A stretch of 50,740 bases of DNA from Saccoglossus kowalevskii (taxonomy: Eukaryota > Hemichordata > Enteropneusta > Harrimaniidae): NCBI RefSeq assembly GCF_000003605.2, contig NW_003149075.1, positions 1-50,740 of the forward strand, given 5' to 3'. Below, piece after piece: positions 8,095 to 46,554 of the stretch; position 1 is the stretch's first letter, and each line of letters opens with the position of its first letter. The translations under genes and the position numbers were made by a program. The notes under the pieces are model-generated. The model saw only the letters and a program-made list of their open reading frames with translations. It did not search any database and was not told the DNA's origin.

Positions 8095-8806
8095 ACTCTT
8101 TGCCCACCAATAAATATAGACGCACTATATATGTTGACACTCCCTCCCTATCTATAAATATGGACGTACTGTATCTGTTGACACTCCCTCCCTGCCTATA
8201 AATATGGACGTACTGTATCTGTTGACACTCCTTGCCAATCTATAAATATAGACGTACTGTATCTGTTGACACTCCCTCCCTACCCAGAAATATAGACGTA
8301 CTGTGTCTGTTGACACTCACTCCCTAGCTATAAATATAGACGTACTGTATTTGTTGACACTTTTTGTCCACCTATAAATATAGACGTACTGTATTTGTTG
8401 ACACTCCTTGTCCACCTATAAATATAGACGTACTGTATCTGTTGACACTCCTTGCCTACCTATAAATATGGACGTACTGTATTTGTTGACACTCCCTCCC
8501 TCCCTACCTATAAATATAGACGTACTGTATTTGTTTACACTCCCTCCCTACCTATAAATATAGACGTACTGTATTTGTTGACACTCCCTCCCTACCTATA
8601 AATATAGACGTACTGTATCTGTTGACACTCCCTCCCTACCTATAAATATAGACGTACTGTATCTGTTGACACTCCCTCCCTACCTATAAATATGGACGTA
8701 CTGTATCTGTTGACACTCCCTCCCTACCTATAAATATAGACGTACTGTATCTGTTGACACTCCCTCCCTCCCTACCTATAAATATAGACGTACTGTATCT
8801 GTTTAC
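8095..8806 (+). repeat. 16-monomer HOR (712 bp), copy 1
   Basis: The block starts at the CTTTGCCCACCAATAAAT monomer with the CACTATATATG tail. It passes a TATCTATAAAT, a CCTGCCTATAA and a CCAATCTATAA monomer, then CACTTTTTGTCC (T-run at 8361), CTCCTTGTCC and CTCCTTGCC monomers. Two 48-bp monomers with an extra CCCT (CCCTCCCTCCC at 8494 and 8762) follow, 268 bases apart. Fourteen 44-mers plus two 48-mers give exactly 712. Confidence 0.9.
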
Positions 8807-10918
8807 ACTCCCTCACTACCTATAAATATGGACGTACTGTGTTTGTTGACACTCCCTCCCTACCTATAAATATAGACGTACTGTATCTGTTGATACTCCC
8901 TCCCTACCTATAAATATAGACGTACTGTATCTATTGACACTCCCTCCCTAACTATAAATATAGACGTACTGTATCTGTTGTCACTCCCTCCCTACCTATA
9001 AATATGGACGCACTGTGTTTGTTGAAACTCCCTCCCTACCTATAAATATAGACCTACTGTATCTGTTGACACTCCCTCCCTACTTATAAATATAGACGTA
9101 CTGTATCTGTTGACACTCCCTCCCTACCTATAAATATAGACGTACTCTATCTGTTGACACTCCCTTCCTACCTATAAATATAGATGTACTGTATCTGTTG
9201 TCACTCCCTCCCTACCTATAAATATGGACGCACTGTGTTTGTTGACACTCCCTCCCTACCTATAAATATAGACCTACTGTATCTGTTGACACTCCCTCCC
9301 TACTTATAAGTATAGACGTACTGTATCTGTTGACACTCCCTCCCCACCTATAAATATAGTCGCACTATATCTGTTGACACTCCCTCCCTACCTATAAATA
9401 TGGACGTACTGTATCTGTTGACACTCCCTCCTTACCTATAAATATGGATGCACTGTATCTGTTGACACTCTTTGCCCACCAATAAATATAGACGCACTAT
9501 ATATGTTGACACTCCCTCCCTACCTATAAATATGGACGTATTGTATCTGTTGACACTCCCTCCCTACCTATAAATATGGACGTACTGTATCTGTTGACAC
9601 TCCTTGCCTACCTATAAATATGGACGTACTGTATTTGTTGACACTCCCTCCCTACCTATAAATATAGACGTACTGTATTTGTTGACACTCCCTCCCTACC
9701 TATAAATATAGACGTACTGTATTTGTTGACACTCCCTCCCTACCTATAAATATGGACGTACTGTATCTGTTGACACTCCCTCCCTACCTACAAATATAGA
9801 CCTACTGTATCTGTTGACACTCTCCCCCTACCTATAAATATGGACTTACTGTATCTGTTGACACTCCCTGCCTACCTATAAAAATAGACGTACTGTATCT
9901 GTTGACACTCCCTCCCCACCTATAAATATAGACGCACTGTATCTGTTGACACTCCCTCCCTACCTATAAATATGGACGCACTGTATCTGTTGACACTCTT
10001 TGCCCACCAATAAATATAGACGCATTATATATGTTGACACTCCCTCCCTATCTATAAATATGGACGTACTGTATCTGTTGACACTCCCTCCCTGCCTATA
10101 AATATGGCCGTACTGTATCTGTTGACACTCCTTGCCAATCTATAAATATAGACGTACTGTATCTGTTGACACTCCCTCCCTACCTATAAATATAGACGTA
10201 CTGTGTCTGTTGACACTCCCTCCCTACCTATAAATATAGACGTACTGTATCTGTTGACACTCCCTCCCTACCTATAAATATAGACGTACTGTATCTGTTG
10301 ACACTCCCTCCCTACCTATAAATATGGACGTACTGTATCTGTTGACACTCCCTGCCTACCTATAAATATAGACGTATTGTAACTGTTGACACTCCCTCCC
10401 TACCTATAAATATAGACGTACTGTATCTGTTGACACTCCCTCCCTACCTATAAATATAGACGTACTGTATCTGTTGACACACCCTCCCTACCTATAAATA
10501 TATACGTACTGTATCTGTTGACACTCCCTCCCTACCTATAAATATGGACGTACTGTATCTGTTGACACTCCCTGCCTAACTATAAATATAGACGTACTGT
10601 ATCTGTTGACACTCCCTCCCTACCTATAAATATAGACGTACTGTATTTGTTGACACTCCCTCCCTACCTATAAATATGGACGCACTGTGTTTGTTGACAC
10701 TACCTCCCTGCCTATAAATATGGACGCACTGTGTATGTTGACACTACCTCCCTGCCTGTAAATATGGACGCACTGTATCTGTTGACACTCCCTCCCTACC
10801 TATAAATATAGACGTACTGTATCTGTTGACACTCCCTCCCTACCTATAAATGTAGACGTACTGTATTTGTTGACACTCCCTCCCTACCTATAAATATGGA
10901 CGCACTGTATCTGTTGAC

Positions 10919-11630
10919 ACTCTTTGCCCACCAATAAATATAGACGCACTATATATGTTGACACTCCCTCCCTATCTATAAATATGGACGTACTGTATCT
11001 GTTGACACTCCCTCCCTGCCTATAAATATGGACGTACTGTATCTGTTGACACTCCTTGCCAATCTATAAATATAGACGTACTGTATCTGTTGACACTCCC
11101 TCCCTACCTATAAATATAGACGTACTGTGTCTGTTGACACTCACTCCCTAGCTATAAATATAGACGTACTGTATTTGTTGACACTTTTTGTCCACCTATA
11201 AATATAGACGTACTGTATTTGTTGACACTCCTTGTCCACCTATAAATATAGACGTACTGTATCTGTTGACACTCCTTGCCTACCTATAAATATGGACGTA
11301 CTGTATTTGTTGACACTCCCTCCCTCCCTACCTATAAATATAGACGTACTGTATTTGTTTACACTCCCTCCCTACCAATAAATATAGACGTACTGTATTT
11401 GTTGACACTCCCTCCCTACCTATAAATATAGACGTACTGTATCTGTTGACACTCCCTCCCTACCTATAAATATAGACGTACTGTATCTGTTGACACTCCC
11501 TCCCTACCTATAAATATGGACGTACTGTATCTGTTGACACTCCCTCCCTACCTATAAATATAGACGTACTGTATCTGTTGACACTCCCTCCCTCCCTACC
11601 TACAAATATAGACCTACTGTATCTGTTGAC
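10919..11630 (+). repeat. 16-monomer HOR (712 bp), copy 2
   Basis: This copy has the same markers and spacing as the one at 8,095: T-run at 11,185, CCCTCCCTCCC at 11,318 and 11,586, total 712. Its last monomer is chimeric: the CCCT insertion is followed by CTACAAATATAGACCTAC, a downstream half normally found in another monomer type. Confidence 0.9.
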
Positions 11631-11979
11631 ACTCTCCCCTACCTATAAATATGGACTTACTGTATCTGTTGACACTCCCTGCCTACCTATAAATATAGAC
11701 GTACTGTAACTGTTGACACTCCCTCCCCACCTATAAATATAGACGCACTGTATCTGTTGACACTCCCTCCCTACCTATAAAATATGGACGCACTGTATCT
11801 GTTGACACTCTTTGCCCACCAATAAATATAGACGCATTATATATGTTGACACTCCCTCCCCTATCTATAAATATGGACGTACTGTATCTGTTGACACTCC
11901 CTCCCTGCCTATAAATATGGCCGTACTGTATCTGTTGACACTCCTTGCCAATCTATAAATATAGACGTACTGTATCTGT

Positions 11980-12530
11980 TGACACTCCCTCCCTACCTAT
12001 AAATATAGACGTACTGTGTCTGTTGACACTCCCTCCCTACCTATAAATATAGACGTACTGTATCTGTTGACACTCCCTCCCTACCTATAAATATAGACGT
12101 ACTGTATCTGTTGACACTCCCTCCCTACCTATAAATATGGACGTACTGTATCTGTTGACACTCCCTGCCTACCTATAAATATAGACGTATTGTATCTGTT
12201 GACACTCCCTCCCTACCTATGAATATGGACGTACTGTATCTGTTGACACTCGCTCCCTACCTAGAAATATAGACGTACTGTATCTGTTGACACTCGCTCC
12301 CTACCTAGAAATATAGACCTACTGTATCTGTTGACACTCCCTCCCTACCTATAAATATAGACGTACTGTATCTGTTGACACTCCCTCCCTACCTATAAAT
12401 ATAGACGTACTGTATCTATTGACACTCCCTCCCTACCTATAAATATGGACGTACTGTATCTGTTGACACTCCCTGCCTACCTATAAATATAGACGTACTG
12501 TACTCTGGTTGACACTCCCTCCCTTCCTAT
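11980..12530 (+). repeat. Block D, copy 1 (matches 48.24-48.77 kb)
   Basis: GTACTGTGTC (12,011), GACGTATTG (12,184) and the first of two CTCGCTCCC/CTAGAAAT monomers (12,251) recur at 48,257, 48,430 and 48,497. The offset is 36,246 in all three cases. The two copies diverge near 12,500, where this one has an irregular TACTCTGGTTGAC monomer. Confidence 0.85.
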
Positions 12531-12960
12531 AAATATAGACGTACTGTATCAGTTGACACTCCCTCCCTACCTATAAATATAGACGTACTGTTTCTGTTGA
12601 CACTCCCTCCCTTCCTATAAATATAGACGAACTGTATCTGTTGACACTGCCTCCCTACCTATAAATATAGACGTACTGTATCTGTTGACACTCCCTCCCT
12701 ACCTATAAATATAGACGTACTTTATTTGTTGACACTCCCTCCCTACCTATAAATATGGAAGTACTGTATTTGTTGACACTCCTTCCCTACCTATAAATAT
12801 AGACGCACTGTATCTGTTGACACTCCTTGCCTACCAATAAATATGAACGTACTGTATCTGTTGACACTCCCTTCCTACATATAAATATGAACGTACTGTA
12901 TCTGTTGACACTCCCTCCCCACCTATAAATATGAATGTACTGTATCTGTTGACATTCCTT
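12500..12960 (+). repeat. Block E, copy 1 (matches 13.97-14.37 kb)
   Basis: The GACGAACTG monomer (12,626) and the CCAATAAATATGAACG monomer (near 12,834) recur at 14,033 and about 14,241, offset near 1,407 (32 monomers less one base). The order between is the same: a GGAAGTAC monomer, CTTCCC and CTTGCC types, and then ATGAACG monomers. Confidence 0.8.
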
Positions 12961-13214
12961 CCCTACCTATAAATATAGACGTACTGTATCTGTTGACACT
13001 CCTTGCCTACCTATAAATATGGACGTACTGTATCTGTTGACACTCCCTCCCTATCTATAAATATGGACGTACTGTATTTGTTGACACTCCCTCCCTACCT
13101 ATAAATATGGACGTACTGTATCTGTTGACACTCCCTGCCTACCTATAAATATAGACGTACTGTATCTGTTTACACTCCCTCCCTACCTATGAATATGGAC
13201 GTACTGTATCTTTT

Positions 13215-14000
13215 GACACTCGCTCCCTACCTACAAATATAGACCTACTCTATCTGTTGACACTCTCCCCCTACCTAAAAATATGGACTTACTGTATCTG
13301 TTAACACTCCCTGCCTACCTATAAATATAGACGTACTGTATCTGTTGACACTCCCTCCCTACCTAAAAATATAGACGTACTGTATCTGTTGACACTCCCT
13401 CCCTACCTATAAATATAGACGTACTGTATCTGTTGACACTCCCTCCCTACCTATAAATATAGACGTACTGTATATGTTGACACTCCCTCCCTACCTATAA
13501 ATATGGACGTACTTTATCTGTTGACACTCCTTGCCTACCTATAAATATAGACGTACTGTTTCTGTTGACACTCCCTCCCTATCTATAAATATGGACGTAC
13601 TGTATTTGTTGACACTACCTCCCTACTTATAAATATAGACGTACTGTATCTGTTGACACTCGCTCCCTACCTACAAATATAGACCTACTCTATCTGTTGA
13701 CACTCTCCCCTACCTATAAATATGGACTTACTGTATCTGTTGACACTCCCTGCCTACCTATAAATATAGACGTACTGTATCTGTTGACACTCCCTCCCTA
13801 CCTAAAAATATAGACGTACTGTATCTGTTGACACTCCCTCCCTACCTATAAATATAGACGTACTGTATCTGTTGACACTCCCTCCCTACCTATAAATATA
13901 GACGTACTGTATCTGTTGACACTCCCTCCCTACCTATAAATATGGACGTACTTTATCTGTTGACACTCCCTGCCTACCTATAAATATAGACGTACTGTTT
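13215..14000 (+). repeat. Tandem duplication of a 10-monomer unit
   Basis: The CGCTCCCTACC/CTACAAAT/CTACTCTATC monomer at 13,221 recurs at 13,661, offset exactly 440. The following CTCTCCCC monomer, ACCTAAAAAT monomer (13,361 and 13,800, offset 439) and ACTTTATCTG monomer also recur. One C lost in the second copy explains the change from 440 to 439. The two copies are adjacent, as expected for one unequal exchange of ten monomers. Confidence 0.85.
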
Positions 14001-14370
14001 CTGTTGACACTCCCTCCCTTCCTATAAATATAGACGAACTGTATCTGTTGACACTGCCTCCCTACCTATAAATATAGACGTACTGTATCTGTTGACACTC
14101 CCTCCCTACCTATAAATATAGACGTACTGTATTTGTTGACACTCCCTCCCTACCTATAAATATGGAAGTACTGTATTTGTTGACACCCCTTCCCTACCTA
14201 TAAATATAGACGCACTGTATCTGTTGACACTCCTTGCCTACCAATAAATATGAACGTACTGTATCTGTTGACACTCCCTTTCCTACATATAAATATGAAC
14301 GTACTGTATCTGTTGACACTCCCTCCCCACCTATAAATATGAAATGTACTGTATCTGTTGACATTCCTTC
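13970..14370 (+). repeat. Block E, copy 2, with extra single-base insertions
   Basis: This copy of the 12.5-12.96 kb block carries an extra T near 14,280 (CCCTTTCC) and an extra A near 14,341 (ATGAAATG). These shifts happen to open a 63-codon stop-free run at 14,234-14,425, which is repeat sequence and not called as a gene. Confidence 0.75.
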
Positions 14371-15873
14371 CCTACCTATAAATATAGACTTACTGTATCT
14401 GTTGACACTCCCTGCCTACCTATAAATATAGACGTACTGTATCTGTTGACACTCCCTCCCTATCTATAAATATAGACGTACTGTATCTGTTGACACTCCC
14501 TCCCTTACCTATAAATATAGACGTACTGTATCTGTTGACACTGCCTCCCTACCTATAAATATAGACGTACTGTTTCTGTTGACACTTCCCTCCCTACCTA
14601 TAAATATAGACGTACTGTATCTGTTGACACTCCCCTACCTATAAATATGGACGTACTGTATCTGTTGACACTCCTTGCCTACCTACAAATATAGACGTAC
14701 TGTATCTGTTGTCACTCCCTCCCTACCTATAAATATGGACGCACTGTGTTTGTTGACACTCCCTCCCTACCTATAAATATAGACGTACTGTATCTGTTGA
14801 CACTCCCTGCCTTCCTATAAATATAGACGTACTGTTTCTGTTGACAATCCCTCCCTTCCTATAAATATAGACGTACTGTATCTGTTGACACTGCCTCCCT
14901 ATCTATAAATATAGACGTACTCTATCTGTTGACACTCCCTCCCTACCTATAAATATAGACGTACTGTATCTGTTTACACTCCCTCCCTACCTATAAATAT
15001 AGACGTACTGTATCTGTTGTCACTCCCTCCCTACCTATAAATATGGACGCAGTGTGTTTGTTGACACTCCCTCCCTACCTATAAATATAGACCTACTGTA
15101 TCTGTTGACACTCCCTCCCTACTTATAAATATAGACGTACTGTATCTGTTGACACTCCCTCCCCACCTATAAATATAGACGCACTATATCTGTTGACACT
15201 CCCTCCCTACCTATAAATATGGACGTACTGTATCTGTTGACACTCCCTCCCTACCTATAAATATGGACGTACTGTATCTGTTGACACTCCCTCCCTACCT
15301 ATAAATATAGACGTACTGTATCTGTTGACACTCCCTCCCTACCTATAATTATAGACGTACTGTATCTGTTTACACTCCCTCCCTACCTATAAATATGGAC
15401 GTACTGTATCTGTTGACACTCCCTCCCTACCTATAAATATGGACGTACTGTATCTGTTGACACTCCCTCCCTACCTATAAATATAGACGTACTGTATCTG
15501 TTGACACTCCCTCCCTACCTATAATTATAGACGTACTGTATCTGTTTACACTCCCTCCCTACCTATAAATATGGACGTACTGTATCTGTTGACACTCCCT
15601 CCGTACCTACAAATATAGACCTACTGTATCTGTTGACACTCTAACCCTACCTATAAATATGGACTTACTGTATCTGTTGTCACTCCCTCCCTACCTATAA
15701 ATATGGACGCACTGTGTTTGTTGACACTCCCTCCCTACCTATAAATATAGACGTACTGTATCTGTTGACACTCCCTCCCTACCTATAAATATAGACGTAC
15801 TGTATCTGTTGACACTCCCTCCCTACCTATAAATATAGACGTACTGTATTTGTTGACACTCCCTCCCTACCTA

Positions 15874-16850
15874 TAAATATAGACGTACTGTATTTGTTGA
15901 CACTTTTTGTCCACCTATAAATATAGACGTACTGTATTTGTTGACACTCCTTGTCCACCTATAAATATAGACGTACTGTATTTGTTGACACTCCCTCCCT
16001 ACCTATAAATATGGACGTACTGTATCTGTTGACACTCCTTGCCTACCTATAAATATGGACGTACTGTATTTATTGACACTCCCTCCCTACCTATAAATAT
16101 AGACGTACTGTATTTGTTTACACTCCCTCCCTACCTATAAATATAGACGTACTGTATTTGTTGACACTCCCTCCCTACCTATAAATATAGACGTACTGTA
16201 TCTGTTGACACTCCCTCCCTACCTATAAATATAAACGTACTGTATCTGTTGACACTCCCTCCCTACCTATAAATATGGACGTACTGTATCTGTTGACACT
16301 CCCTCCCTACCTATAAATATAGACGTACTGTATCTGTTGACACTCCCTCCCTACCTATAAATATAGACGTACTGTATCTGTTTACACTCCCTCCCTACCT
16401 ATAAATATGGACGTACTGTATCTGTTGACACTCCCTCCCTACCTACAAATATAGACCTACTGTATCTGTTGACACTCTCCCCTACCTATAAATATGGACT
16501 TACTGTATCTGTTGACACTCCCTGCCTACCTGTAAATATAGACGTACTGTATCTGTTTACACTCATTCCCTACCTATGAATATGGACGTACTGTATCTGT
16601 TGACACTCGCTCCCTACCTACAAATATAGACCTACTGTATCTGTTGACACTCTCCCCTACATATAAATATGGACTTACTGTATCTGTTGACACTCCCTGC
16701 CTACCTATAAATATAGACGTACTGTATCTGTTGACACTCCCTGCCTTCCTCTGAATATAGACGTACTGTATCTGTTGACACTGCCTCCCTACCTATAAAT
16801 ATAGACGTACTGTTTCTGTTGACACTTCCTCCCTACCTATAAATATAGAC
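15874..16850 (+). repeat. Segmental block A, copy 2
   Basis: The T-run of CACTTTTTGTCC is at 15,904 and CTCTGAATAT at 16,749, 845 apart as in the copy 5,009 bases downstream. The block contains the CTGTAAATATAG, CACTCATTCCC, CTATGAATATGG and CTCGCTCCC monomers in the same order as that copy. Confidence 0.87.
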
Positions 16851-18299
16851 GTACTGTATCTGTTGACACTCCCTCCTACCTATAAATATGGACGTACTGT
16901 ATCTGTTGACACTCCTTGCCTACCTACAAATATAGACGTACTGTATCTGTTGTCACTCCCTAACTACCTATAAATATGGACGCACTGTGTTTGTTGACAC
17001 TCCCTCCCTACCTATAAATATAGACGTACTGTATCTGTTGACACTCCCTGCCTTCCTATAAATATAGACGTACTGTTTCTGTTGACACTACCTCCCTTCC
17101 TATAAATATAGACGTACTGTATCTGTTGACACTCCCTCCCTACCTATAAATATAGACGTACTGTATCTGTTGACACTGCCCCTACCTATAAATATGGACG
17201 TACTGTATCTGTTGACACTCCTTGCCGACCTACAAATATAGACGTACTGTATCTGTTGTCACTCCCTCCCTACCTATAAATATGGACGCACTGTGTTTGT
17301 TGACACTCCCTCCCTACCTATAAATATAGACGTACTGTATCTGTTGACACTCCCTCCCTACCTATAAATATAGACGTACTGTATCTATTGACACTCCCTC
17401 CCTACCTATAAATATAGACGTACTGTATCTGTTGTCACTCCCTCCCTACCTATAAATATGGACGCACTGTGTTTGTTGACACTCCCTCCCTACCTATAAA
17501 TATAGACCTACTGTATCTGTTGACACTCCCTCCCTACATATAAATATAGACGTACTGTATCTGTTGACACTCCCTCCCTACCTATAAATATAGACGTACT
17601 GTATCTGTTTACACTCCCTCCCTACCTATAAATATAGACGTACTGTATCTGTTGTCACTCCCTCCCTACCTATAAATATGGACGCAGTGTGTTTGTTGAC
17701 ACTCCCTCCCTACCTATAAATATAGACCTACTGTATCTGTTGACACTCCCTCCCTACATATAAATATAGACGTACTGTATCTGTTGACACTCCCTCCCTA
17801 CCTATAAATATAGACGTACTGTATCTGTTTACACTCCCTCCCTACCTATAAATATGGACGCACTGTGTTTGTTGACACTCCCTCCCTACCTATAAATATA
17901 GACCTACTGTATCTGTTGACACTCCCTCCCTACATATAAATATAGACGTACTGTATCTGTTGACACTCCCTCCCTACCTATAAATATAGACGTACTGTAT
18001 CTGTTTACACTCCCTCCCTACCTATAAATATAGACGTACTGTATCTGTTGTCACTCCCTCCCTACCTATAAATATGGACGCACTGTGTTTGTTGACACTC
18101 CCTCCCTACCTATAAATATAGACCTACTGTATCTGTTGACACTCCCTCCCTACATATAAATATAGACGTACTGTATCTGTTGACACTCCCTCCCTACCTA
18201 TAAATATAGACGTACTGTATCTGTTTACACTCCCTCCCTACCTATAAATATAGACGTACTGTATCTGTTGTCACTCCCTCCCTACCTATAAATATGGAC

Positions 18300-20440
18300 G
18301 CAGTGTGTTTGTTGACACTCCCTCCCTACCTATAAATATGGACCTACTGTATCTGTTGACACTCCCTGCCTACCTATAAATATAGACGTACTGTATCTGT
18401 TGACACTCCCTCCCTACCTATAAATATAGACGTACTGTATGTGTTGACACTCCCTCCCTACCTATAAATATAGACGTACTGTATCTGTTGACACTCCCTC
18501 CCTACCTATAAATATAGACGTACTGTATCTGTTGACACTCCCCCCTACCTATAAATATGGACGTACTGTATCTGTTGACACTCCTTGCCTACCTACAAAT
18601 AAAGACGTACTGTATCTGTTGTCACTCCCTCCCTACCTATAAATATGGACGCACTGTGTTTGTTGACACTCCCTCCCTACTTATAAATATAGACCTACTG
18701 TATCTGTTGACACTCCCTCCCTACATATAAATATAGACGTACTGTATCTGTTGACACTCCCTCCCTACCTATAAATATAGACGTACTGTATCTGTTGACA
18801 CTCCCTCCCTACCTATAAATATAGACGTACTGTATCTGTTTACACTCCCTCCCTACCTATAAATATGGTCGTACTGTATCTGTTGACACTCCCTCCGTAC
18901 CTACAAATATAGACCTACTGTATCTGTTGACACTCTCCCCCCTACCTATAAATATGGACTTACTGTATCTGTTGTCACTCCCTCCCTACCTATAAATATA
19001 GACGTACTGTATCTGTTGACACTCCCTCCCTAACTATAAATATAGACGTACTGTATCTGTTGTCACTCCCTCCCTACCTATAAATATGGACGCACTGTGT
19101 TCGTTGACACTCCCTCCCTACCTATAAATATAGACCTACTGTATCTGTTGACACTCCCTGCCTACTTATAAATATAGACGTACTGTATCTGATGACACTC
19201 CCTCCCTACCTATAAATATAGACGTACTGTATCTGTTGACACCCCCTCCCTACCTATAAATATAGATGTACTGTATCTGTTGTCACTCCCTCCCTACCTA
19301 TAAATATGGACGCACTGTGTTTGTTGACACTCCCTTCCTACCTATAAATATAGACGTACTGTATCTGTTGACACTCTCTCCCTACTTATAAATATAGACG
19401 TACTGTATCTGTTGACACTCCCTCCCCACCTATAAATATAGTCGCACTATATCTGTTGACACTCCCTCCCTACCTATAAATATGGACGTACTGTATTTGT
19501 TGACACTCCCTCCCTACCTATAAATATGGACGTACTGTATCTGTTTACACTCCCTCCCTACCTATAAATATGGACGTACTGTATCTGTTGACACTCCCTC
19601 CCTACCTATAAATATGGACGTACTGTTTCTGTTGACACTCCCTCCCTACCTATAAATATAGACCTACTGTATCTGTTGACACTCTCCCCCTACCTATAAA
19701 TATGGACTTACTGTATCTGTTGACACTCCCTGCCTACCTATAAATATAGACGTACTGTATCTGTTGACACTCCCTCCCTACCTATAAATATAGACGTACT
19801 GTATGTGTTGACACTCCCTCCCTACCTATAAATATGGACGTACTGTATTTGTTGACACTCCCTCCCTACCTATAAATATGGACGTACTGTATCTGTTTAC
19901 ACTCCCTCCCTACCTATAAATATGGACGTACTGTATCTGTTGACACTCCCTCCCTACCTATAAATATGGACGTACTGTTTCTGTTGACACTCCCTCCCTA
20001 CCTATTAATATAGACCTACTGTATCTGTTGACACTCTCCCCCTACCTATAAATATGGACTTACTGTATCTGTTGACACTCCCTGCCTACCTATAAATATA
20101 GACGTACTGTATCTGTTGACACTCCCTCCCTACCTATAAATATAGACGTACTGTATGTGTTGACACTCCCTCCCTACCTATAAATATAGACGTACTGTAT
20201 CTGTTGACACTCCCTGCCTACCTATAAATATAGACGTACTGTTTCTGTTGACACTCCCTCCCTTCCTATAAATATAGACGTACTGTATCTGTTGACACTG
20301 CCTCCCTACCTATAAATATAGACGTACTGTTTCTGTTGACACTTCCTCCCTACCTATAAATATAGACGTACTGTATCTGTTGACACTCCCCCTACCTATA
20401 AATATGGACGTACTGTATCTGTTGACACTCCTTGCCTACC
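18300..20440 (+). repeat. Segmental block B, copy 2 (longest)
   Basis: The left part matches 3.37-4.36 kb (offsets 14,930-14,931). From TGGTC (18,866) rightward it also matches 33.24-34.46 kb: TGGTC and CGTTGAC at 14,376, then GATGTAC (19,265 to 33,640), GTCGCACTATA (19,441 to 33,816) and GTATGTG (19,801 to 34,176) at 14,375. The block thus bridges two copies that overlap only in part. It contains its own 8-monomer duplication. Confidence 0.87.
19485..20188 (+). repeat. Tandem duplication of an 8-monomer unit (2 x 352 bp)
   Basis: The rare GTATGTGTTG monomer at 19,801 recurs at 20,153, exactly 352 = 8 x 44 bases later. The monomers before it, including a TATTTG, a GTTTAC, a GTTTCTG, a CTCTCCCCC and a GGACTTAC type, repeat in the same order. 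The related block at 33.8-34.2 kb has a single copy, so the duplication probably arose after those blocks separated. The second copy has a private CTATTAATATAG change near 20,003. Confidence 0.88.
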
Positions 20441-20882
20441 TACAAATAAAGACGTACTGTATCTGTTGTCACTCCCTCCCTACCTATAAATATGGACGCA
20501 CTGTGTTTGTTGACACACCCTCCCTACCTATAAATATATACGTACTGTATCTGTTGACACTCCCTGCCTACCTATAAATATAGACGTACTGTATCTGTTT
20601 ACGCTCCCTCCCTACCTATAAATATGGACGTACTGTTTCTGTTGACACTCCCTCCCTACCTATAAATATTGACCTACTGTATCTGTTGACACTCTCCCCC
20701 TACCTATAAATATGGACTTACTGTATCTGTTGACACTCCCTGCCTACCTATAAATATAGACGTACTGTATCTGTTGACACTCCCTCCCTACCTATAAATA
20801 TAGACGTACTGTATGTGTTGACACTCCCTCCCTACCTATAAATATAGACGTACTGTATTTGTTGACACTCCCTCCCTACCTA

Positions 20883-29500: not shown

Positions 29501-29517
29501 ACGTACTGTATCTGTTG

Positions 29518-30260: not shown

Positions 30261-30289
30261 GTTGACACTCCCTCCCCACCAATAAATAT

Positions 30290-32809: not shown

Positions 32810-33190
32810 CTGTATCTGTTGACACTCCCTCCCTACATATAAATATGGACGTACTGTATCTGTTGACACTCCTTGCCTACCTATAAATATGGACGTAGTT
32901 TATCTGTTGTCACTCCCTCCCTACCTATAAATATGGACGCACTGTGTTTGTTGACACTACCTCCCTACCTATAAATATGGACGTACTGTATCTGTTGACA
33001 CTCCCTCCCTACCTATAAATATAGACGTACTGTATCTGTTGACACTCCCTCTCTACTTATAAATATGGAAGTACTGTATTTGTTGACACTCCTTCCCTAC
33101 CTATAAATATAGACGTACTGTATCTGTTGACACTCCTTGCCTACCTATAAATATGGACGTACTGTATCTGTTGACACTCCCTCCCTACCT
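32810..33190 (+). repeat. Partner of the 0.12-0.50 kb block
   Basis: GGACGTAGTTTATC is at 32,891 and CTCTCTACTTAT follows near 33,050; the offset is 32,690 from the window-start copy. It is followed directly by block B sequence, a junction not seen in the first copy. Confidence 0.8.
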
Positions 33191-34460: not shown

Positions 34461-36129
34461 TACCTACAAATATAGACGTACTGTATCTGTTGTCACTCCC
34501 TCCCTACCTATAAATATGGACGTACTGTATCTGTTGACACTCCTTGCCTACCTATAAATATGGACGTACTGTGTTTGTTGACACTCCCTCCCTACCTATA
34601 AATATAGACGTACTGTATCTGTTGACACTCCCTGCCTTCCTATAAATATAGACGTACTGTTTCTGTTGACAATCCCTCCCTTCCTATAAATATAGACGTA
34701 CTGTATCTGTTGACACTGCCTCCCTATCTATAAATATAGACGTACTCTATCTGTTGACACTCCCTCCCTACCTATAAATATAGACGTACTGTATCTGTTT
34801 ACACTCCCTCCCTACCTATAAATATAGACGTACTGTATCTGTTGTCACTCCCTCCCTACCTATAAATATGGACGCAGTGTGTTTGTTGACACTCCCTCCC
34901 TACCTATAAATATAGACCTACTGTATCTGTTGACACTCCCTCCCTACTTATAAATATAGACGTACTGTATCTGTTGACACTCCCTCCCCACCTATAAATA
35001 TAGACGCACTATATCTGTTGACACTCCCTCCCTACCTATAAATATGGACGTACTGTATCTGTTGACACTCCCTCCCTACCTATAAATATGGACGTACTGT
35101 ATCTGTTGACACTCCCTCCCTACATATAAATATAGACGTACTGTATCTGTTGACACTCCCTCCCTACCTATAAATTATAGACGTACTGTATCTGTTGACA
35201 CTCTCCCCCTACCTATAAATATGGACTTACTGTATCTGTTGACACTCCCTGCCTACCTATAAATATAGACGTACTGTATCTGTTGACACTCCCTCCCTTC
35301 CTATAAATATAGACGTACTGTATCTGTTGACACTGCCTCCCTACCTATAAATATAGACGTACTGTTTCTGTTGACACTTCCTCCCTACCTATAAATATAG
35401 ACGTACTGTATCTGTTGACACTCCCCCTACCTATAAATATGGACGTACTGTATCTGTTGACACTCCTTGCCTACCTACAAATATAGACGTACTGTATCTG
35501 TTGCCACTCCCTCCCTACCTATAAATATGGACGCACTGTGTTTGTTGACACTCCCTCCCTACCTATAAATATAGACGTACTGTATCTGTTGACACTCCCT
35601 GCCTTCCTATAAATATAGACGTACTGTTTCTGTTGACACTACCTCTCTTCCTATAAATATAGACGTACTGTATCTGTTGACACTCCCTCCCTACCTATAA
35701 ATATAGACGTACTGTATCTGTTGACACTCCCCCTACCTATAAATATGGACGTACTGTATCTGTTGACACTCCTTGCCGACCTACAAATATAGACGTACTG
35801 TATCTGTTGTCACTCCCTCCCTACCTATAAATATGGACGCACTGTGTTTGTTGACACTCCCTCTCTACCTATAAATATAGACGTACTGTATCTGTTGACA
35901 CTCCCTCCCTACCTATAAATATAGACGTACTGTATCTGTTGACACTCCCTCCCTACCTATAAATATAGACGTACTGTATCTGTTGTCACTCCCTCCCTAC
36001 CTATAAATATGGACGCACTGTGTTTGTTGACACTCCCTCCCTACCTATAAATATAGACGTACTGTATCTGTTGACACTCCCTCCCTACCTATAAATATAG
36101 ACGTACTGTATCTGTTTACACTCCCTCCC

Positions 36130-36630
36130 TACCTATAAATATGGACGTACTGTATCTGTTGACACTCCCTCCCTACCTACAAATATTGACCTACTGTATC
36201 TGTTGACACTCTCCCCCTACCTATAAATATGGACTTACTGTATCTGTTGACACTCCCTGCCTACCTATAAATAAAGACGTACTGTATCTGTTGACACTCC
36301 CTCCCTACCCATAAATATAGACGCACTGTATCTGTTGACACTCCCTTCCTACCTATAAATATAGACGTACTGTATCTGTTGACACTCCCTCCCTACCTAT
36401 AAATATGGACGTACTGTATCTGTTGACACTCCCTGCCTACCTATAAATATAGACGTACTGTATCTGTTTACACTCCCTCCCTACCTATGAATATGGACGT
36501 ACTGTATCTGTTGACACTCGCTCCCTACCTACAAATATAGACCTACTGTATCTGTTGACACTCTCCCCCTACCTATAAATATGGACTTACTGTATCTGTT
36601 GACACTCCCGGCCTACCTATAAATATAGAC
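36130..36630 (+). repeat. Block J, copy 1
   Basis: AAATATTGAC (36,181), ATAAAGAC (36,271), a CTACCCATAAAT monomer and CCCGGCC (36,607) recur at 45,420, 45,510, about 45.55 kb and 45,846. The offset is 9,239 at the three measured landmarks. The first and last also occur at 43,828 and 44,254 with the same 426-base spacing. Confidence 0.87.
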
Positions 36631-37395
36631 GTACTGTATCTGTTGACACTCCCTCCCTACCTATAAATATAGACGTACTGTATCTGTTGACACTCCCTCC
36701 CTACCTATAAATATAGACGTACTGTATCTGTTGACACTCCCTCCCTACCTATAAATATAGACGTACTGTATCTATTGACACTCCCTCCCTACCTATAAAT
36801 ATGGACGTACTGTATCTGTTGACACTCCCTGCCTACCTATAAATATAGACGTACTGTTTCTGTTGACACTCCCTCCCTTCCTATAAATATAGACGTACTG
36901 TATCAGTTGACACTGCCTCCCAACCTATAAATATAGACGTACTGTATTTGTTGACACTCTTTGTCCACCTATAAATATAGAAGTACTGTATTTGTTGACA
37001 CTACCTCCCTACTTATAAATATAGACGTACTGTATTTGTTGACACTCCTTGCCCACCTATAAATATAGACGTACCTTATCTGTTGACACTCCCTGCCTAA
37101 CTATAAATATAGACGTACTGTATCTGTTGACACTCCCTCCCTCCCTATAAATATAGACGTACTGTATTTGTTGACACTCCCTCCCTACCTATAAATATGG
37201 ACGCACTGTGTTTGTTGACACTACATCCCTGCCTGTAAATATGGACGCACTGTATCTGTTGACACTCCCTCCCTACCTATAAATATAGACGTACTGTATC
37301 TGTTGACACTCCCTCCCTACCTATAAATGTAGACGTACTGTATTTGTTGACACTCCCTCCCTACCTATAAATATGGACGCACTGTATCTGTTGAC

Positions 37396-38107
37396 ACTCT
37401 TTGCCCACCAATAAATATAGACGCACTATATATGTTGACACTCCCTCCCTATCTATAAATATGGACGTACTGTATCTGTTGACACTCCCTCCCTGCCTAT
37501 AAATATGGACGTACTGTATCTGTTGACACTCCTTGCCAATCTATAAATATAGACGTACTGTATCTGTTGACACTCCCTCCCTACCTATAAATATAGACGT
37601 ACTGTGTCTGTTGGCACTCACTCCCTAGCTATAAATATAGACGTACTGTATTTGTTGACACTTTTTGTCCACCTATAAATATAGACGTACTGTATTTGTT
37701 GACACTCCTTGTCCACCTATAAATATAGACGTACTGTATCTGTTGACACTCCTTGCCTACCTATAAATATGGACGTACTGTATTTGTTGACACTCCCTCC
37801 CTCCCTACCTATAAATATAGACGTACTGTATTTGTTTACACTCCCTCCCTACCTATAAATATAGACGTACTGTATTTGTTGACACTCCCTCCCTACCTAT
37901 AAATATAGACGTACTGTATCTGTTGACACTCCCTCCCTACCTATAAATATAGACGTACTGTATCTGTTGACACTCCCTCCCTACCTATAAATATGGACGT
38001 ACTGTATCTGTTGACACTCCCTCCCTACCTATAAATATAGACGTACTGTATCTGTTGACACTCCCTCCCTCCCTACCTATAAATATAGACGTACTGTATC
38101 TGTTTAC
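37396..38107 (+). repeat. 16-monomer HOR (712 bp), copy 5
   Basis: Markers are as at 8,095: T-run at 37,662, CCCTCCCTCCC at 37,795 and 38,063, total 712. It has a private GTTGGCAC change near 37,613 and is followed by an irregular GGACTGAATG/GTTGTCCC monomer near 38,220. Confidence 0.9.
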
Positions 38108-38693
38108 ACTCCCTCACTACCTATAAATATGGACGTACTGTATCTGTTGACACTCCCTCCCTACCTATAATTATAGACGTACTGTATCTGTTGACACTCC
38201 TTGCCTACCTATATATATGGACTGAATGTATCTGTTGTCCCTCCCTGCCTACCTATAAATACAGACGTACTGTATCTGTTGACACTCCCTCCCTACCAAT
38301 AAATATAGACGTACTGTATCTGTTGACACTCCCTCCCTACCTATAAATATGGACGTACTGTATCTGTTGAAACTCTCTCTCTACCTATAAATATGAACGT
38401 ACTGTATCTGTTGACACTCCCTCCCTACCTATAAATATAGACGTACTGTATCTGTTGACACTCCCTCCCTACCTATAAATATGGACGTACTGTATCTGTT
38501 GACACTCCCTGCCTACCTATAAATATAGACGTACTGTATCTGTTGACACTCCCTCCCTACCTATAAATATAGACGTACTGTATCTGTTGACACTCCCTCC
38601 CTACCTATAAATATAGACGTACTGTATTTGTTGACACTCCCTCCCTACCTATAAATATGGAAGTACTGTATTTGTTGACACCCCTTCCCTACC

Positions 38694-38705
38694 TATATAT
38701 ATATA
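38694..38705 (+). repeat. (TA)6 expansion inside a monomer
   Basis: The usual TATAAATATAG core is replaced by six TA units before GACG. It follows a GGAAGTAC/CACCCCTTCCC monomer. (TA)5 forms in the same context are at 22,811-22,820, 25,916-25,925, 42,099-42,108 and 42,715-42,724. Confidence 0.92.
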
Positions 38706-40059
38706 GACGTACTGTATCTGTTAACACTCCTTGCCTACCTATAAATATGGACGTACTGTATCTGTTGAAACTCTCTCCCTACCTATAAATATGAACGTAC
38801 TGTATCTGTTGACACTCCCTCCCTACCTATAAATATAGACGTACTGTATCTGTTGACACTCCCTCCCTATCTATAAATATGGACGTACTGTATCTGTTGA
38901 CACTCCCTCCCTGCCTATAAATATAGACATACTGTATCTGTTGACACTCCCTCCCTACCTATAAATATAGACGCACTGTATCTGTTGACACTCCCTGCCT
39001 ACCTATAAATATAGACGTACTGTATCTGTTGACACTCCCTCCCTACCTATAAATATAGACGCACTGTATCTTTTGACACTCCCTCCCTACCAATAAATAT
39101 GGACGCACTGTATCTGTTGACACTCTTTGCCCACCAATAAATATAGACGCACTATATATGTTGACACTCCCTCCCTATCTATAAATATGGACGTACTGTA
39201 TCTGTTGACACTCCCTCCCTACCTAGAAATATAGACGTACTGTATCTGTTGACACTCTCTCCCTACCTAGAAATATAGACCTACTGTATCTGTTGACACT
39301 CTCCCCCTACCTATAAATATGGACTTACTGTATCTGTTGACACTCCCTCCCTATCTATAAATATGGACGTACTGTATCTGTTGACACTCCCTCCCTGCCT
39401 ATAAATATAGACGTACTGTATCTGTTGACACTCCCTCCCTACCTATAAATATAGACGTACTGTATCTGTTGACACTCCCTCCCTACCTATAAATATAGAC
39501 GTACTGTATCTGTTTACACTCCCTCCCTACCTATAAATATGGACGTACTGTATCTGTTGACACTCCCTACCTACCTACAAATATAGACCTACTGTATCTG
39601 TTGACACTCTCCCCCTACCTATAAATATGTACTTACTGTATCTGTTGACACTCCCTGCCTACCTATAAATATAGACGTACTGTATCTGTTGACACTCCCT
39701 CCCTACCTATAAATATACACGTACTGTATCTGTTGACACTCCCTCCCTACCTATGAATATAGACGTACTGTATCTGTTGACACTCCCTCCCTACCTATAA
39801 ATATGGACGTACTGTATTTGTTGACACTCCTTGCCTACCTATAAATATAGACGTACTGTATCTGTTGACACTCCCTCCCTACCTATAAATATAGACGTAC
39901 TGTATCTGTTGACACTCCCTCCCTACCTATAAATATAGACGTACTGTATCTGTTGACACTCCCTCCCTACCTATAAATATAGACGTACTGTATCTGTTGA
40001 CACTCCCTCCCTACCTATAAATATGGACGTACTGTATCTGTTGACACTCCCTCCCTACC

Positions 40060-40510
40060 TATAAATATAGACGTACTGTATCTGTTGACACTCCCTCCCT
40101 CCCTACCTATAAATATAGACGTACTGTATCTGTTTACACTCCCTCACTACCTATAAATATGGACGTACTGTATCTGTTGACACTCCCTCCCTACCTATAA
40201 TTATAGACGTACTGTATCTGTTGACACTCCCTCTCTCCCTACCTATAAATATAGACGTACTGTATCTGTTGTCACTCCCTCCCTACCTATAAATATAGAC
40301 GTACTGTATCTGTTGACACTCCCTCCCTCCCTACCTATAAATATAGACGTACTGTATCTGTTTACACTCCCTCACTACCTATAAATATGGACGTACTGTA
40401 TCTGTTGACACTCCCTCCCTACCTATAAATATAGACGTACTGTATCTGTTGACACTCCCTCCCTCCCTACCTATAAATATAGACGTACTGTATCTGTTGT
40501 CACTCCCTCC
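40060..40510 (+). repeat. Cluster of 48-bp (CCCT-insertion) monomers
   Basis: CCCTCCCTCCC occurs at 40,093, 40,321 and 40,457, with a CCCTCTCTCCC relative near 40,229. The last interval of 136 (three monomers plus 4) matches 46,510 to 46,646. Outside the 712-bp HOR this is the densest group of the 48-bp variant. Confidence 0.85.
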
Positions 40511-42534
40511 CTACCTACAAATATAGACCTACTGTATCTGTTGACACTCTCCCCCTACCTATAAATATGGACTTACTGTATCTGTTGACACTCCCTGCCT
40601 ACCTATAAATATAGACGTACTGTATCTGTTGACACTACCTCCCTACCTATAAATATAGACGCACTGTATCTGTTGACACTCCCTTCCTACCTATAAATAT
40701 AGACGTACTGTATCTGTTGACACTCCCTCCCTACCTATAAATATGGACGTACTGTATCTGTTGACACTCCCTGCCTACCTATAAATATAGACGTGCTGTA
40801 TCTGTTTACACTCCCTCCCTACCTATGAATATGGACGTACTGTATCTGTTGACACTCGCTCCCTACCTACAAATATAGACCTACTGTATCTGTTGACACT
40901 CTCCCCCTACCTATAAATATGGACTTACTGTATCTGTTGACACTCCCGGCCTACCTATAAATATAGACGTACTGTATCTGTTGACACTCCTTCCCTACCT
41001 ATAAATATAGACGTACTGTATCTGTTGACACTCCCTCCCTACCTATAAATATAGACGTACTGTATCTGTTGACACTCCCTCCCTACCTATAAATATAGCC
41101 GTACGGTATTTGTTGACACTCCTTGTCCACCTATAAATATAGACGTACTGTATTTGTTTACACTCCCTCCCTACCTATAAATATAGACGTACTGTATCTG
41201 TTGACACTCCCCCCCTACCTATAAATATAGACGTACTGTATTTGTTGACACTGCCTCCATACCTATAAATATAGACGTACTGTATTTGTTGACACTCTTT
41301 GTCCACCTATAAATATAGACGTACTGTATTTGTTGACACTCCCTCCCTACCTATAAATATGGAAGTACTGTATTTGTTGACACCCCTTGCCTACCTATAA
41401 ATATAGACGTACTGTATTTGTTGACACTCCCTCCCTACCTATAAATATAGACGTACTGTATTTGTTTATACTTCCTCCCTACCTATAAATATAGACGTAA
41501 TGTATTTGTTGACACTCCCTCCCTACCTATAAATATAGACGTACTGTATCTGTTGACACTCCTTGCCTACCTATAAATATAGACGTACTGTATCTGTTGA
41601 CACTCCCTCCCCACATATAAATATGGAAGTACTGTATTTGTTGAAACCCCTTCCCTACCTATAAATATAGACGTACTGTATTTGTTGACACTCCCTCCCT
41701 ACATATAAATATGGACGTACTGTATCTGTTGACACCCTTGCCTACCTAAAAATATGGACGTACTGTATTTGTTGACACTCCCTCCCTACCTATAAACATA
41801 GACGTACTGTATTTGTTGACACTCCCTCCCTACCTATAAATATAGACGTACTGTATCTGTTGACACTCCTCCCTACCTATAAATATAGACGTACTGTATT
41901 TGTTGACACTCCCTCCCTACCTATAAATATGGAAGTACAGTATTTGTTGACACCCTTTCCCTACCTATAAATATAGACGTACTGTATCTGTTGACACTCC
42001 TTGCCTACCTATAAATATAGACGTACTGTATTTGTTGACACTCCCTCCCTACCTATAAATATAGGAAGTACTGTATTTGTTGACACCCCTTCCCTACCTA
42101 TATATATAGACGTACTGTATCTGTTGACCCTCCTTGCCTACCTATAAATATGGACGTACTGTATCTGTTGAAACTCTCTCCCTATAAATATGAACGTACT
42201 GTATCTGTTGACACTCCCTCCCTACCTATAAATATAGACGTACTGTATCTGTTGACACTCCCTCCCTACCTATAAATATAGACGTACGGTATCTGTTGAC
42301 ACTCCCTCCCTACCTATAAATATGGACGTACTGTATCTGTTGACACTCCCTGCCTACCTATAAATATAGACGTACTGTATCTGTTGACACTCCCTCCCTA
42401 CCTATAAATATAGACGTACTGTATCTGTTGACACTCCCTCCCTACCTATAAATATAGACGTACTGTATTTGTTGACACTCCCTCCCTACCTATAAATATG
42501 GAAGTACTGTATTTGTTGACACCCCTTCCCTACC

Positions 42535-42548
42535 TATATATATATATA
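42535..42548 (+). repeat. (TA)7 expansion inside a monomer
   Basis: This is the longest TA run in the window: seven units between CTACC and GACG. It again follows a GGAAGTAC/CACCCCTTCCC monomer. Its block is related to the (TA)6 block 3,841 bases upstream. Confidence 0.93.
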
Positions 42549-43140
42549 GACGTACTGTATCTGTTGACACTCCCTCCCTACCTATAAATATAGACGTACT
42601 GTATCTGTTGACACTCCCTTCCTACCTATAAATATAGACGTACTGTATTTGTTGACACTCCCTCCCTACCTATAAATATGGAAGTACTGTATTTGTTGAC
42701 ACCCCTTCCCTACCTATATATATAGACGTACTGTATCTGTTGACACTCCTTGCCTACCTATAAATATGGACGTACTGTATCTGTTGAAACTCTCTCCCTA
42801 CCTATAAATATGAACGTACTGTATCTGTTGACACTCCCTCCCTACCTATAAATATAGACGTACTGTATCTGTTGACACTCCCTCCCTATCTATAAATATG
42901 GACGTACTGTATCTGTTGACACTCCCTCCCTGCCTATAAATATGGAGGTACTGTATCTGTTGACACTCCCTCCCTACCTACAAATATAGACCTACTGTAT
43001 CTGTTGACACTCTCTCCCTACCTATAAATATGGACTTACTGTATCTGTTGACACTCCCTCCCTACCTATAAATATAGACGCACTGTATCTGCTGACACTC
43101 CCTCCCTACCTATAAATATGGACGCACTGTATCTGTTGAC

Positions 43141-43766
43141 ACTCTTTGCCCACCAATAAATATAGACGCACTATATATGTTGACACTCCCTCCCTATCTA
43201 TAAATATGGCCGTACTGTATCTGTTGACACTCCCTCCCTGCCTATAAATATGGCCGTACTGTATCTGTTGACACTCCTTTGCCAATCTATAAATATAGAC
43301 GTACTGTATCTGTTGACGCTTCCCTCCCTACCTATAAATATAGACGTACTGTGTCTGTTGACACTCCCTCCCTACCTATAAATATAGACGTACTGTATTT
43401 GTTGACACTTTTTGTCCACCTATAAATATAGACGTACTGTATTTGTTGACACTCCTTGTACACCTATAAATATAGACGTACTGTATCTGTTGACACTCCT
43501 TGCCTACCTATAAATATGGACGTACTGTATTTGTTGACACTCCCTCCCTCCCTACCTATAAATATAGACGTACTGTATTTGTTTACACTCCCTCCCTACA
43601 TATAAATACAGACGTACTGTATTTGTTGACACTCCCTCCCTACCTATAAATATAGACGTACTGTATCTGTTGACACTCCCTCCCTACCTATAAATATAGA
43701 CGTACTGTATCTGTTGACACTCCCTCCCTCCCTACCTATAAATATAGACGTACTGTATCTGTTTAC
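43141..43766 (+). repeat. 16-monomer HOR, copy 6 (two monomers deleted)
   Basis: T-run at 43,409, CCCTCCCTCCC at 43,542 and 43,722. The interval between the two 48-mers is 180, not 268, a loss of exactly two monomers. Two extra bases lie before the T-run (CCTTTGCC and GACGCTTCCC). The total of 626 equals 712 - 88 + 2. Confidence 0.88.
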
Positions 43767-44270
43767 ACTCCCTCCCTACCTATAAATATGGACGTACTGT
43801 ATCTGTTGACACTCCCTCCCTACCTACAAATATTGACCTACTGTATCTGTTGACACTCTCCCCCTACCTATAAATATGGACTTACTGTATCTGTTGACAC
43901 TCCCTGCCTACCTATAAATATAGACGTACTGTATCTGTTGACACTCCCTCCCTACCTATAAATATAGACGCACTGTATCTGTTGACACTCCCTTCCTACC
44001 TATAAATATAGACGTACTGTATCTGTTGACACTCCCTCCCTACCTATAAATATGGACGTACTGTATCTGTTGACACTCCCTGCCTACCTATAAATATAGA
44101 CGTACTGTATCTGTTTACACTCCCTCCCTACCTATGAATATGGACGTACTGTATCTGTTGACACTCGCTCCCTACCTACAAATATAGACCTACTGTATCT
44201 GTTGACACTCTCCCCCTACCTATAAATATGGACTTACTGTATCTGTTGACACTCCCGGCCTACCTATAAA
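43755..44270 (+). repeat. Block J, copy 2
   Basis: AAATATTGAC (43,828) and CCCGG (44,254) are 426 apart as in the copies at 36.18 and 45.42 kb. It lacks the ATAAAGAC and CTACCCATAAAT changes shared by those two, so they are closer to each other despite the larger distance. Confidence 0.85.
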
Positions 44271-44690
44271 TATAGACGTACTGTATCTGTTGACACTCCC
44301 TCCCTACCTATAAATATAGATGTACTGTATCTGTTGACACTCTCTCCCTACCTATAAATATGAACGTACTGTATCTGTTGACACTCCCTCCCTACCTATA
44401 AATATAGACGTACTGTATCTGTTGACACTCCCTCCCTATCTATAAATATGGACGTACTGTATCTGTTGACACTCCCTCCCTGCCTATAAATATGGAGGTA
44501 CTGTATCTGTTGACACTCCCTCCCTACCTACAAATATAGACCTACTGTATCTGTTGACACTCTCCCCCTACCTATAAATATGGACATACTGTATCTGTTG
44601 ACACTCCCTCCCTACCTATAAATATAGACGCACTGTATCTGTTGACACTCCCTCCCTACCTATAAATATGGACGCACTGTATCTGTTGAC

Positions 44691-45358
44691 ACTCTTTGCC
44701 CACCAATAAATATAGACGCACTATATATGTTGACACTCCCTCCCTATCTATAAATATGGCCGTACTGTATCTGTTGACACTCCCTCCCTGCCTATAAATA
44801 TGGCCGTACTGTATCTGTTGACACTCCTTGCCAATCTATAAATATAGACGTACGGTATCTGTTGACACTCCCTCCCTACCTATAAATATAGACGTACTGT
44901 GTCTGTTGACACTCCCTCCCTACCTATAAATATAGACGTACTGTATTTGTTGACACTTTTTGTCCACCTATCAATATAGACGTACTGTATCTGTTGACAC
45001 TCCTTGCCTACCTATAAATATGGACGTACTGTATTTGTTGACACTCCCTCCCTCCCTACCTATAAATATAGACGTACTGTATTTGTTTACACTCCCTCCC
45101 TTCCTATATATACAGACGTACTGTATTTGTTGACACTCCCTCCCTACCTATAAATATAGACGTACTGTATCTGTTGACACTCCCTCCCTACCTATAAATA
45201 TAGACGTACTGTATCTGTTGACACTCCCTCCCTACCTATAAATATGGACGTACTGTATCTGTTGACACTCCCTCCCTACCTATAAATATAGACGTACTGT
45301 ATCTGTTGACACTCCCTCCCTCCCTACCTATAAATATAGACGTACTGTATCTGTTTAC
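44691..45358 (+). repeat. 16-monomer HOR, copy 7 (one monomer deleted)
   Basis: T-run at 44,957, CCCTCCCTCCC at 45,046 and 45,314. The interval from T-run to first 48-mer is 89 instead of 133, and the CTCCTTGTCC monomer is the one missing. The total of 668 equals 712 - 44. A CTATCAATATAG and a CTATATATACAG monomer are private to this copy. Confidence 0.88.
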
Positions 45359-45359
45359 A

Positions 45360-45860
45360 CTCCCTCCCTACCTATAAATATGGACGTACTGTATCTGTTG
45401 ACACTCCCTCCCTACCTACAAATATTGACCTACTGTATCTGTTGACACTCTCCCCCTACCTATAAATATGGACTTACTGTATCTGTTGACACTCCCTGCC
45501 TACCTATAAATAAAGACGTACTGTATCTGTTGACACTCCCTCCCTACCCATAAATATAGACGCACTGTATCTGTTGACACTCCCTTCCTACCTATAAATA
45601 TAGACGTACTGTATCTGTTGACACTCCCTCCCTACCTATAAATATGGACGTACTGTATCTGTTGACACTCCCTGCCTACCTATAAATATAGACGTGCTGT
45701 ATCTGTTTACACTCCCTCCCTACCTATGAATATGGACGTACTGTATCTGTTGACACTCGCTCCCTACCTACAAATATAGACCTACTGTATCTGTTGACAC
45801 TCTCCCCCTACCTATAAATATGGACTTACTGTATCTGTTGACACTCCCGGCCTACCTATA
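45360..45860 (+). repeat. Block J, copy 3
   Basis: This is the partner of 36.13-36.63 kb at a constant offset of 9,239. It ends at a chimeric monomer that switches straight into the 712-bp HOR. Confidence 0.87.
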
Positions 45861-46554
45861 AATATAGACGCACTATATATGTTGACACTCCCTCCCTATC
45901 TATAAATATGGACGTACTGTATCTGTTGACACTCCCTCCCTGCCTATAAATATGGCCGTACTCTATCTGTTGACACTCCTTGCCAATCTATAAATATAGA
46001 CGTACTGTATCTGTTGACACTCCCTCCCTACCTATAAATATAGACGTACTGTGTCTGTTGACACTCCCTCCCTACCTATAAATATAGACGTACTGTATTT
46101 GTTGACACTTTTTGTCCACCTACAAATATAGACGTACTGTATTTGTTGACACTCCTTGTCCACCTATAAATATAGACGTACTGTATCTGTTGACACTCCT
46201 TGCCTACCTATAAATATGGACGTACTGTATTTGTTGACACTCCCTCCCTCCCTACCTCTAAATATAGTCGTACTGTATTTGTTTACACTCCCTCCCTACC
46301 TATAAATATAGACGTACTGTATTTGTTGACACTCCCTCCCTACCTATAAATATAGACGTACTGTATCTGTTGACACTCCCTCCCTACCTATAAATATAGA
46401 CGTACTGTATCTGTTGACACTCCCTCCCTACCTATAAATATGGACGTACTGTATCTGTTGACACTCCCTCCCTACCTATAAATATAGACGTACTGTATCT
46501 GTTGACACTCCCTCCCTCCCTACCTATAAATATAGACGTACTGTATCTGTTTAC
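45843..46554 (+). repeat. 16-monomer HOR (712 bp), copy 8, with chimeric first monomer
   Basis: The first monomer has a CCCGGCC left half (as in block J) joined to the GACGCACTATATATG right half of the HOR's first monomer. From there the spacing is standard: T-run at 46,109, CCCTCCCTCCC at 46,242 and 46,510, total 712. The switch point lies within the shared ATAAATATAGACG core. Confidence 0.9.

Follow-up and report, generated by a model that had tools for sequence, protein, structure and literature searches.

The 50,740-bp contig NW_003149075.1 of the hemichordate Saccoglossus kowalevskii (RefSeq assembly GCF_000003605.2), analysed here over its whole length on the forward strand and called the window below, consists of satellite DNA with a 44-bp unit, in which a 712-bp block of 16 monomers recurs in eight dispersed copies. 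The window is the entire contig C3931 (1-50740) in an assembly of 572,110,611 bases and 4,830 contigs, and both of its ends sit inside the satellite. Tandem Repeats Finder reported a single array of 1150.8 copies with 90% matches, and wrap-around decomposition yielded 1,150 whole monomers of 339 types, 1,056 of which are 44 bp long and 25 of which are 48 bp long; 16 of these 25 lie in the eight block copies, and their CCCT tract is longer by one unit. All monomers share one orientation, head to tail. The longest listed open reading frame (ORF) in the window encodes 65 amino acids, nothing reached gathering scores in an Rfam scan of the window, and a tRNA scan of the window found none. The window is tandem satellite DNA, a long head-to-tail, non-coding array.

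A higher-order repeat (HOR) of 16 monomers and eight copies had been claimed by the original prediction, and decomposition into 44-bp monomers recovered this block (14 x 44 + 2 x 48 = 712 bp) in eight copies, six of them full length (c1 to c8; Table 1). The two copies described as short, at 43,141 and 44,691, do lack two and one monomers, respectively, and the monomers absent from c6 are not those absent from c7. The markers framing the copies were located by a search of the window where they had been placed: CTTTGCCCACCAATAAAT occurs at 12 places, 7 of them within block copies, and CACTTTTTGTCC at 11 places, 8 of them within block copies. The eighth copy, which had been counted without being listed, is c8. 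The starts of the two 48-bp monomers, which carry a CCCT insertion, are 268 bp apart in seven copies and 180 bp apart in c6; judging from this fixed spacing in the blocks, block copying has done more than repeated slippage to spread the CCCT-lengthened monomers. The copies differ pairwise at 2-17 of 580-712 aligned bases (0.3-2.7% of positions), and a four-gamete test inside the block found 0 conflicts in 28 comparisons of 8 informative sites, indicating that the copies fit a tree. No two copies touch, and the scattered, non-contiguous layout is as had been proposed.

Table 1. Coordinates of the array, block copies and duplicated segments in the window
Feature	Position	Strand	Description
44-bp satellite array	13..50740	+	head to tail; Tandem Repeats Finder and monomer decomposition
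Block copy c1	8062..8773	+	16 monomers, 712 bp
Block copy c2	10886..11597	+	16 monomers, 712 bp; 4 differences from c1
Block copy c3	23028..23740	+	16 monomers, 713 bp; 3 differences from c4
Block copy c4	26133..26844	+	16 monomers, 712 bp; in a 43-monomer segment common with c3
Block copy c5	37363..38074	+	16 monomers, 712 bp
Block copy c6	43108..43733	+	14 monomers, two absent
Block copy c7	44658..45325	+	15 monomers, one absent
Block copy c8	45810..46521	+	16 monomers; first monomer diverged, without the CTTTGCCC marker
Partial block copy, right part, 8 monomers	39837..40192	+	alignment paths with 23473-23828 and 37807-38162
Duplicated segment with most aligned monomers	849..4805	+	83 monomers, mean distance 0.73; partner 15693-19823
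Partner of 849-4805	15693..19823	+	local alignment
Segment containing c3	22501..24408	+	43 monomers, duplicated at 25606-27508

The order of monomers in the array is repeated far beyond chance. With c1 as a template, five ungapped registers, c1 included, had a total edit distance of 16 or less over the 16 monomers, and the next had 17, whereas 300 shuffles of monomer order gave no register within distance 16 of c1 and a best value of 46. Exact 8-monomer words were repeated at 102 positions in the window and at none in 200 shuffles, and the top score of a monomer-level local alignment was 210 in the window compared with 19-21 in three shuffles. Eight pairs of 48-bp monomers stood exactly six monomers apart, compared with a mean of 0.5 and a maximum of 4 in 2,000 random placements. 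Among 1,135 stretches of 16 monomers that were scanned, 31 had four or five other ungapped copies, and all of these lay in or beside the block family, indicating that the block is the most-copied word of its length in the array. The comparison with chance on which the original prediction had staked its claim of a repeated variant order thus came out in its favour.

The likeness to alpha satellite that had been drawn holds in one respect: equivalent monomers of the six full-length copies are 1.41% apart, whereas monomers within the block are 11.8% apart on average. It fails in others, as the copies are not contiguous and there is neither a lag-16 nor a 712-bp signal. An alpha-satellite-type HOR with a fixed 16-monomer period was rejected, with an identity of 0.014 at a lag of 16 monomers, below expectation (z = -2.2); an interval of 712 bp between successive identical k-mers was counted 6 times at k = 20 and 0 times at k = 30 and 40, and an interval of 44 bp thousands of times. 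The 16-monomer block exists as stated, but its size is not fixed. Pairs of copies have from 13 to 58 aligned monomers in common (43 for c3 and c4, 54 for c3 and c8, only the 16 for c2 and c3), and the shared sequence overruns the block in many pairs. Because the shared length differs by pair, the block edges depend on the pair, and 16 monomers is the stretch framed by the markers, one piece of duplications whose length varies. It does count as an HOR under the looser, pairwise-block definition of TRASH (PMC10199239), a pair of blocks of equal monomer number whose monomers match in order. When we re-implemented this definition with stricter limits (at least 8 monomers, distance at most 1), our code, rather than the TRASH software, returned 65 HOR pairs in the window and 0 in five shuffles, with 64.9% of the monomers involved.

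Scans for shorter regularities were divided. With exact identity, periods of 35, 14 and 7 monomers scored 5.8, 4.6 and 4.5, respectively, with a null maximum of 2.0 on average and 4.8 at the largest (200 shuffles); with edit distance, the best score was 4.3 at a period of 32, and the largest null value was 7.1 (60 shuffles). As the edit-distance scan lies within its null, we do not claim a general short period. The most locally regular stretch, at 16747-20300, shows similarity at a lag of five monomers, with a mean distance of 2.6-2.8 compared with a background of 4.17. At 19472-20175, 8 monomers (352 bp) are duplicated in tandem with seven of the eight identical, a near-perfect duplication that represents a local exchange event.

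The blocks belong to a patchwork of duplicated segments that covers most of the array. Monomer-level local alignment found 112 segment pairs scoring at least 28, touching 1,043 of the 1,150 monomers, with lengths of 6-83 monomers (about 0.3-4 kb) and a median of 13; an alignment with looser gaps fused the segments into 20-35-kb chains, and the pairs given here come from a stricter one that took its place. Partners are separated by a median of 15.6 kb, compared with 14.9 kb for random pairs of positions, and the offset showed no clear correlation with either divergence (rho 0.13, p 0.17) or length (rho -0.09, p 0.36). Neighbour likeness is weak, with identity at lags 1-10 only 1.21 times base. 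The flanks of the block are mosaic: c5 equals c2 in the three monomers just left of the block, and c3 and c4 in the three just right of it.

The same pattern was observed on a second contig. An 88-base search of the assembly gave at least one scored contig, C1250 (21,846 bp), the count being a lower bound. C1250 is entirely satellite, of the same repeat as the window. In its plus-oriented part, 404 of 446 whole monomers were covered by 103 segments common to the window, with a median of 11 monomers and in scrambled order; the best score was 193, compared with 17-19 in three shuffles. The longest exact match between the two contigs measured 810 bp, exceeding the longest exact repeat inside the window (556 bp; k-mer method for both). 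A ninth block copy, 99.2% identical to c1, lies at C1250 11172-11879, and two more places on C1250 match the block at 94.6-94.8%; other in-register matches to the block, even the better BLAST matches on this contig, were mostly 91-93% alike. Near base 2195 of C1250 the satellite switches strand abruptly, from minus before to plus after. A stretch of 595 bp in the inverted part matches the window exactly from position 1391, and this part looks like an ordinary array reversed. A simple fold-back palindrome at the switch was considered and rejected: the mirror alignment covered 2,031 aligned bases and had 432 gap columns, and its identity of 91% is about that of unrelated satellite stretches, indicating that the sequence next to the switch was not simply folded back.

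Assemblers are weakest inside satellite arrays, and the strand switch on an all-satellite contig, together with a window that is wholly satellite and has both ends inside the array, would be compatible with a mosaic created by assembly or read correction, in which reads of different copies were mixed in the consensus and the true long-range order is another. We consider this explanation improbable, as the block copies have private differences, absent monomers and a consistent tree, and the pattern recurs on two separate contigs, though both come from one assembler. Moreover, the shared tracts are mostly 0.3-2 kb, shorter than long-read misjoins would be expected to give.

The explanation that we favour is long-range copying of short tracts combined with local gain and loss of monomers. 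Short tracts from one region of the array would be transferred to far-off regions, the most plausible route being non-allelic gene conversion or template switching during break repair, while small out-of-register exchanges would concurrently change the local monomer number by one to a few. The 712-bp blocks, in their eight copies, would then be the most-copied tracts at the 16-monomer scale. A repair mechanism behind the copying is what we infer from this pattern. Gene conversion tracts are usually about 2 kb or less, according to PMC2834710. We also propose, more tentatively, that the array may evolve mainly by copying of 0.3-2 kb tracts, with no decay over distances of at least 50 kb and across contigs. 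If this were true, nearby monomers would be hardly more related than distant ones, which is the reverse of what short-step unequal exchange leads one to expect, and with a 44-bp unit.

Crude simulations of tandem duplication and deletion were compared with equally crude ones of tract copying. One set comprised 60 runs, none of which was dropped; in a second set, 36 of 96 runs with a mean monomer distance of 2.5-6.5 (4.17 across the window) were kept and 60 were dropped. From an initial set of seven runs, which was poorly matched in diversity, only the observed values for the window were used. The longest near-identical ungapped run in the window spans 27 monomers. Global copying gave 17-56 in 23 of its 24 kept simulations (the other yielded too few runs), and long-step unequal exchange gave 47-385 in each of its 12, so that run length favours global copying. 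Copying limited to a range of 60 monomers gave lag ratios of 1.97-2.76 in six of six runs, compared with the 1.21 observed, whereas global copying of tracts with a mean of 10-20 monomers, with small tandem events making up half, gave 1.08-1.46 in nine kept runs, which brackets the observed value.

Several results weigh against long-range copying. The window contains 121 near-identical runs, whereas global copying in which small tandem events made up at most half produced 11-49 (14 kept runs) and long-step unequal exchange 125-669 (12 kept runs), so that run count favours the latter. The run test was ungapped, and when monomer gaps are allowed the longest shared segment extends to 83 monomers. 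Short-step unequal exchange (means of 12 and 30) always fell short of the diversity in the window, which makes the comparison with it unfair, and the identity fraction in the kept simulations was never below 0.057, compared with 0.023 in the window. More segment partners lie 10-20 kb apart than expected (44 against about 31), the tree-like relationship of the copies means that no exchange inside the block is demonstrated, and 7 of the 112 segment pairs are nearly tandem. These few tandem pairs also bear on extrachromosomal circles amplified and re-inserted in the array, which would place multi-monomer tracts at distant sites and which one study reportedly concerns in the case of plant satellites; rolling-circle tracts would be expected to be tandem, but only those seven pairs are nearly so and the block copies are non-contiguous, and we regard circles as very improbable.

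The main competitor is unequal sister-chromatid exchange in large steps of about 3-15 kb, whose tandem duplications would have been eroded by small indels and deletions into scattered remnants. Unequal exchange is described as a source of HORs (Talbert and Henikoff, PMC2834710). Word matches between positions in the window have one maximum at 333 monomers (about 14.7 kb) and a second near 663, and are suggestive of a 14.7-kb macro-period and its harmonic at 29.2 kb; such a weak period would fit an old large tandem duplication and is a further point against tract copying. However, as block size grew, 5, 8 and 22 of 100 block shuffles reached the first peak, and 0, 12 and 26 of 200 reached both peaks jointly, so that the macro-period is borderline. 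A family at 3837-4805, 18767-19823 and 33143-34198 lies 4225, 4261 and 4220 bp from c1, c3 and c5, respectively (hand calculation), giving a similar spacing in three places, but the intervening sequence was not clearly more alike than elsewhere, as random intervals scored as well in 72 of 135, 14 of 135 and 34 of 130 cases. Identity at a lag of 70 monomers was the highest among lags 1-199 (z 5.7) and matches the c3-c4 offset of 3,105 bp, which speaks for large-step exchange. Its simulated run counts are also the nearer to the observed one, whereas its simulated runs are too long. Taken together, we judge large-step exchange possible but rather unlikely. Because the simulations are divided, run length favouring copying and run count unequal exchange, and have the limits given above, we prefer long-range tract copying with local monomer gain and loss only at about an even chance, and the sequence alone cannot separate conversion from insertion of copied tracts, or from assembly mosaicism.

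The consensus unit of the satellite contains the motif TATAAATA and a pyrimidine tract, CTCCCTCCCT, both present in most monomers of the window, and the observed/expected ratio of CpG in the window is 0.59. The predicted DNA folding of a monomer dimer was no better than that of shuffles (z 0.91). Sigma-70-like matches numbered 25 at 8000-10000, compared with 7.4 in shuffles, because the monomer repeats, and no meaning is assigned to the excess. A CENP-B-box pattern had no match on either strand of the window; the array may have a chromosomal role, for example at a centromere or in heterochromatin. No relatives of the satellite were found in phage and plasmid collections with one 1,000-base query, or in viral_contigs and genome_contigs with two patterns each, which says little because the DNA in them is viral, plasmid and prokaryotic. 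Searches of the literature by phrases for a 44-bp satellite and by three sequence strings of the monomer, which left aside supplementary files and most subscription papers, found no paper, and no such satellite appeared in the titles or opening abstract lines of the related papers listed.

What keeps satellite arrays homogeneous has long been asked, and under short-step unequal exchange neighbouring monomers should be similar. Dense internal markers (339 types among 1,150 monomers, and the 48-bp variants) allow copying to be traced here by tract length, distance and flank, and the scatter in the window suggests either that short tracts were copied over long range or that large duplications of old date were later broken up. 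Similar phenomena have already been described in plant centromere satellites, so that what is gained is a well-marked further case rather than a new kind.

Among known systems, human alpha-satellite HORs (PMC8122249) resemble the window in that equivalent monomers across copies are far closer than monomers within a copy, whereas the window block has neither contiguous repetition nor a fixed period. The HORs of Arabidopsis CEN178, as annotated by TRASH (PMC10199239), are alike in that the window blocks satisfy the same HOR definition; their monomer is 178 bp rather than 44 bp. In rice CentO, as described in PMC2834710, variant monomers are likewise reshuffled, although the sequence and unit are different. 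In maize, according to PMC4806543, CentC HORs on CEN10 occur among segmental duplications, a CentC monomer has been deleted, and double-strand break repair was the most plausible cause. CentC shares with the window the duplication of multi-monomer blocks within the array and the loss of single monomers, which in CentC came about by homology-mediated recombination; however, several of its blocks are adjacent segmental duplications (same source), whereas the window has eight copies at near-random distances over 50 kb and a 44-bp monomer. The window array fits a known kind, as described for plant centromere satellites, with a shorter unit and dispersed copies.

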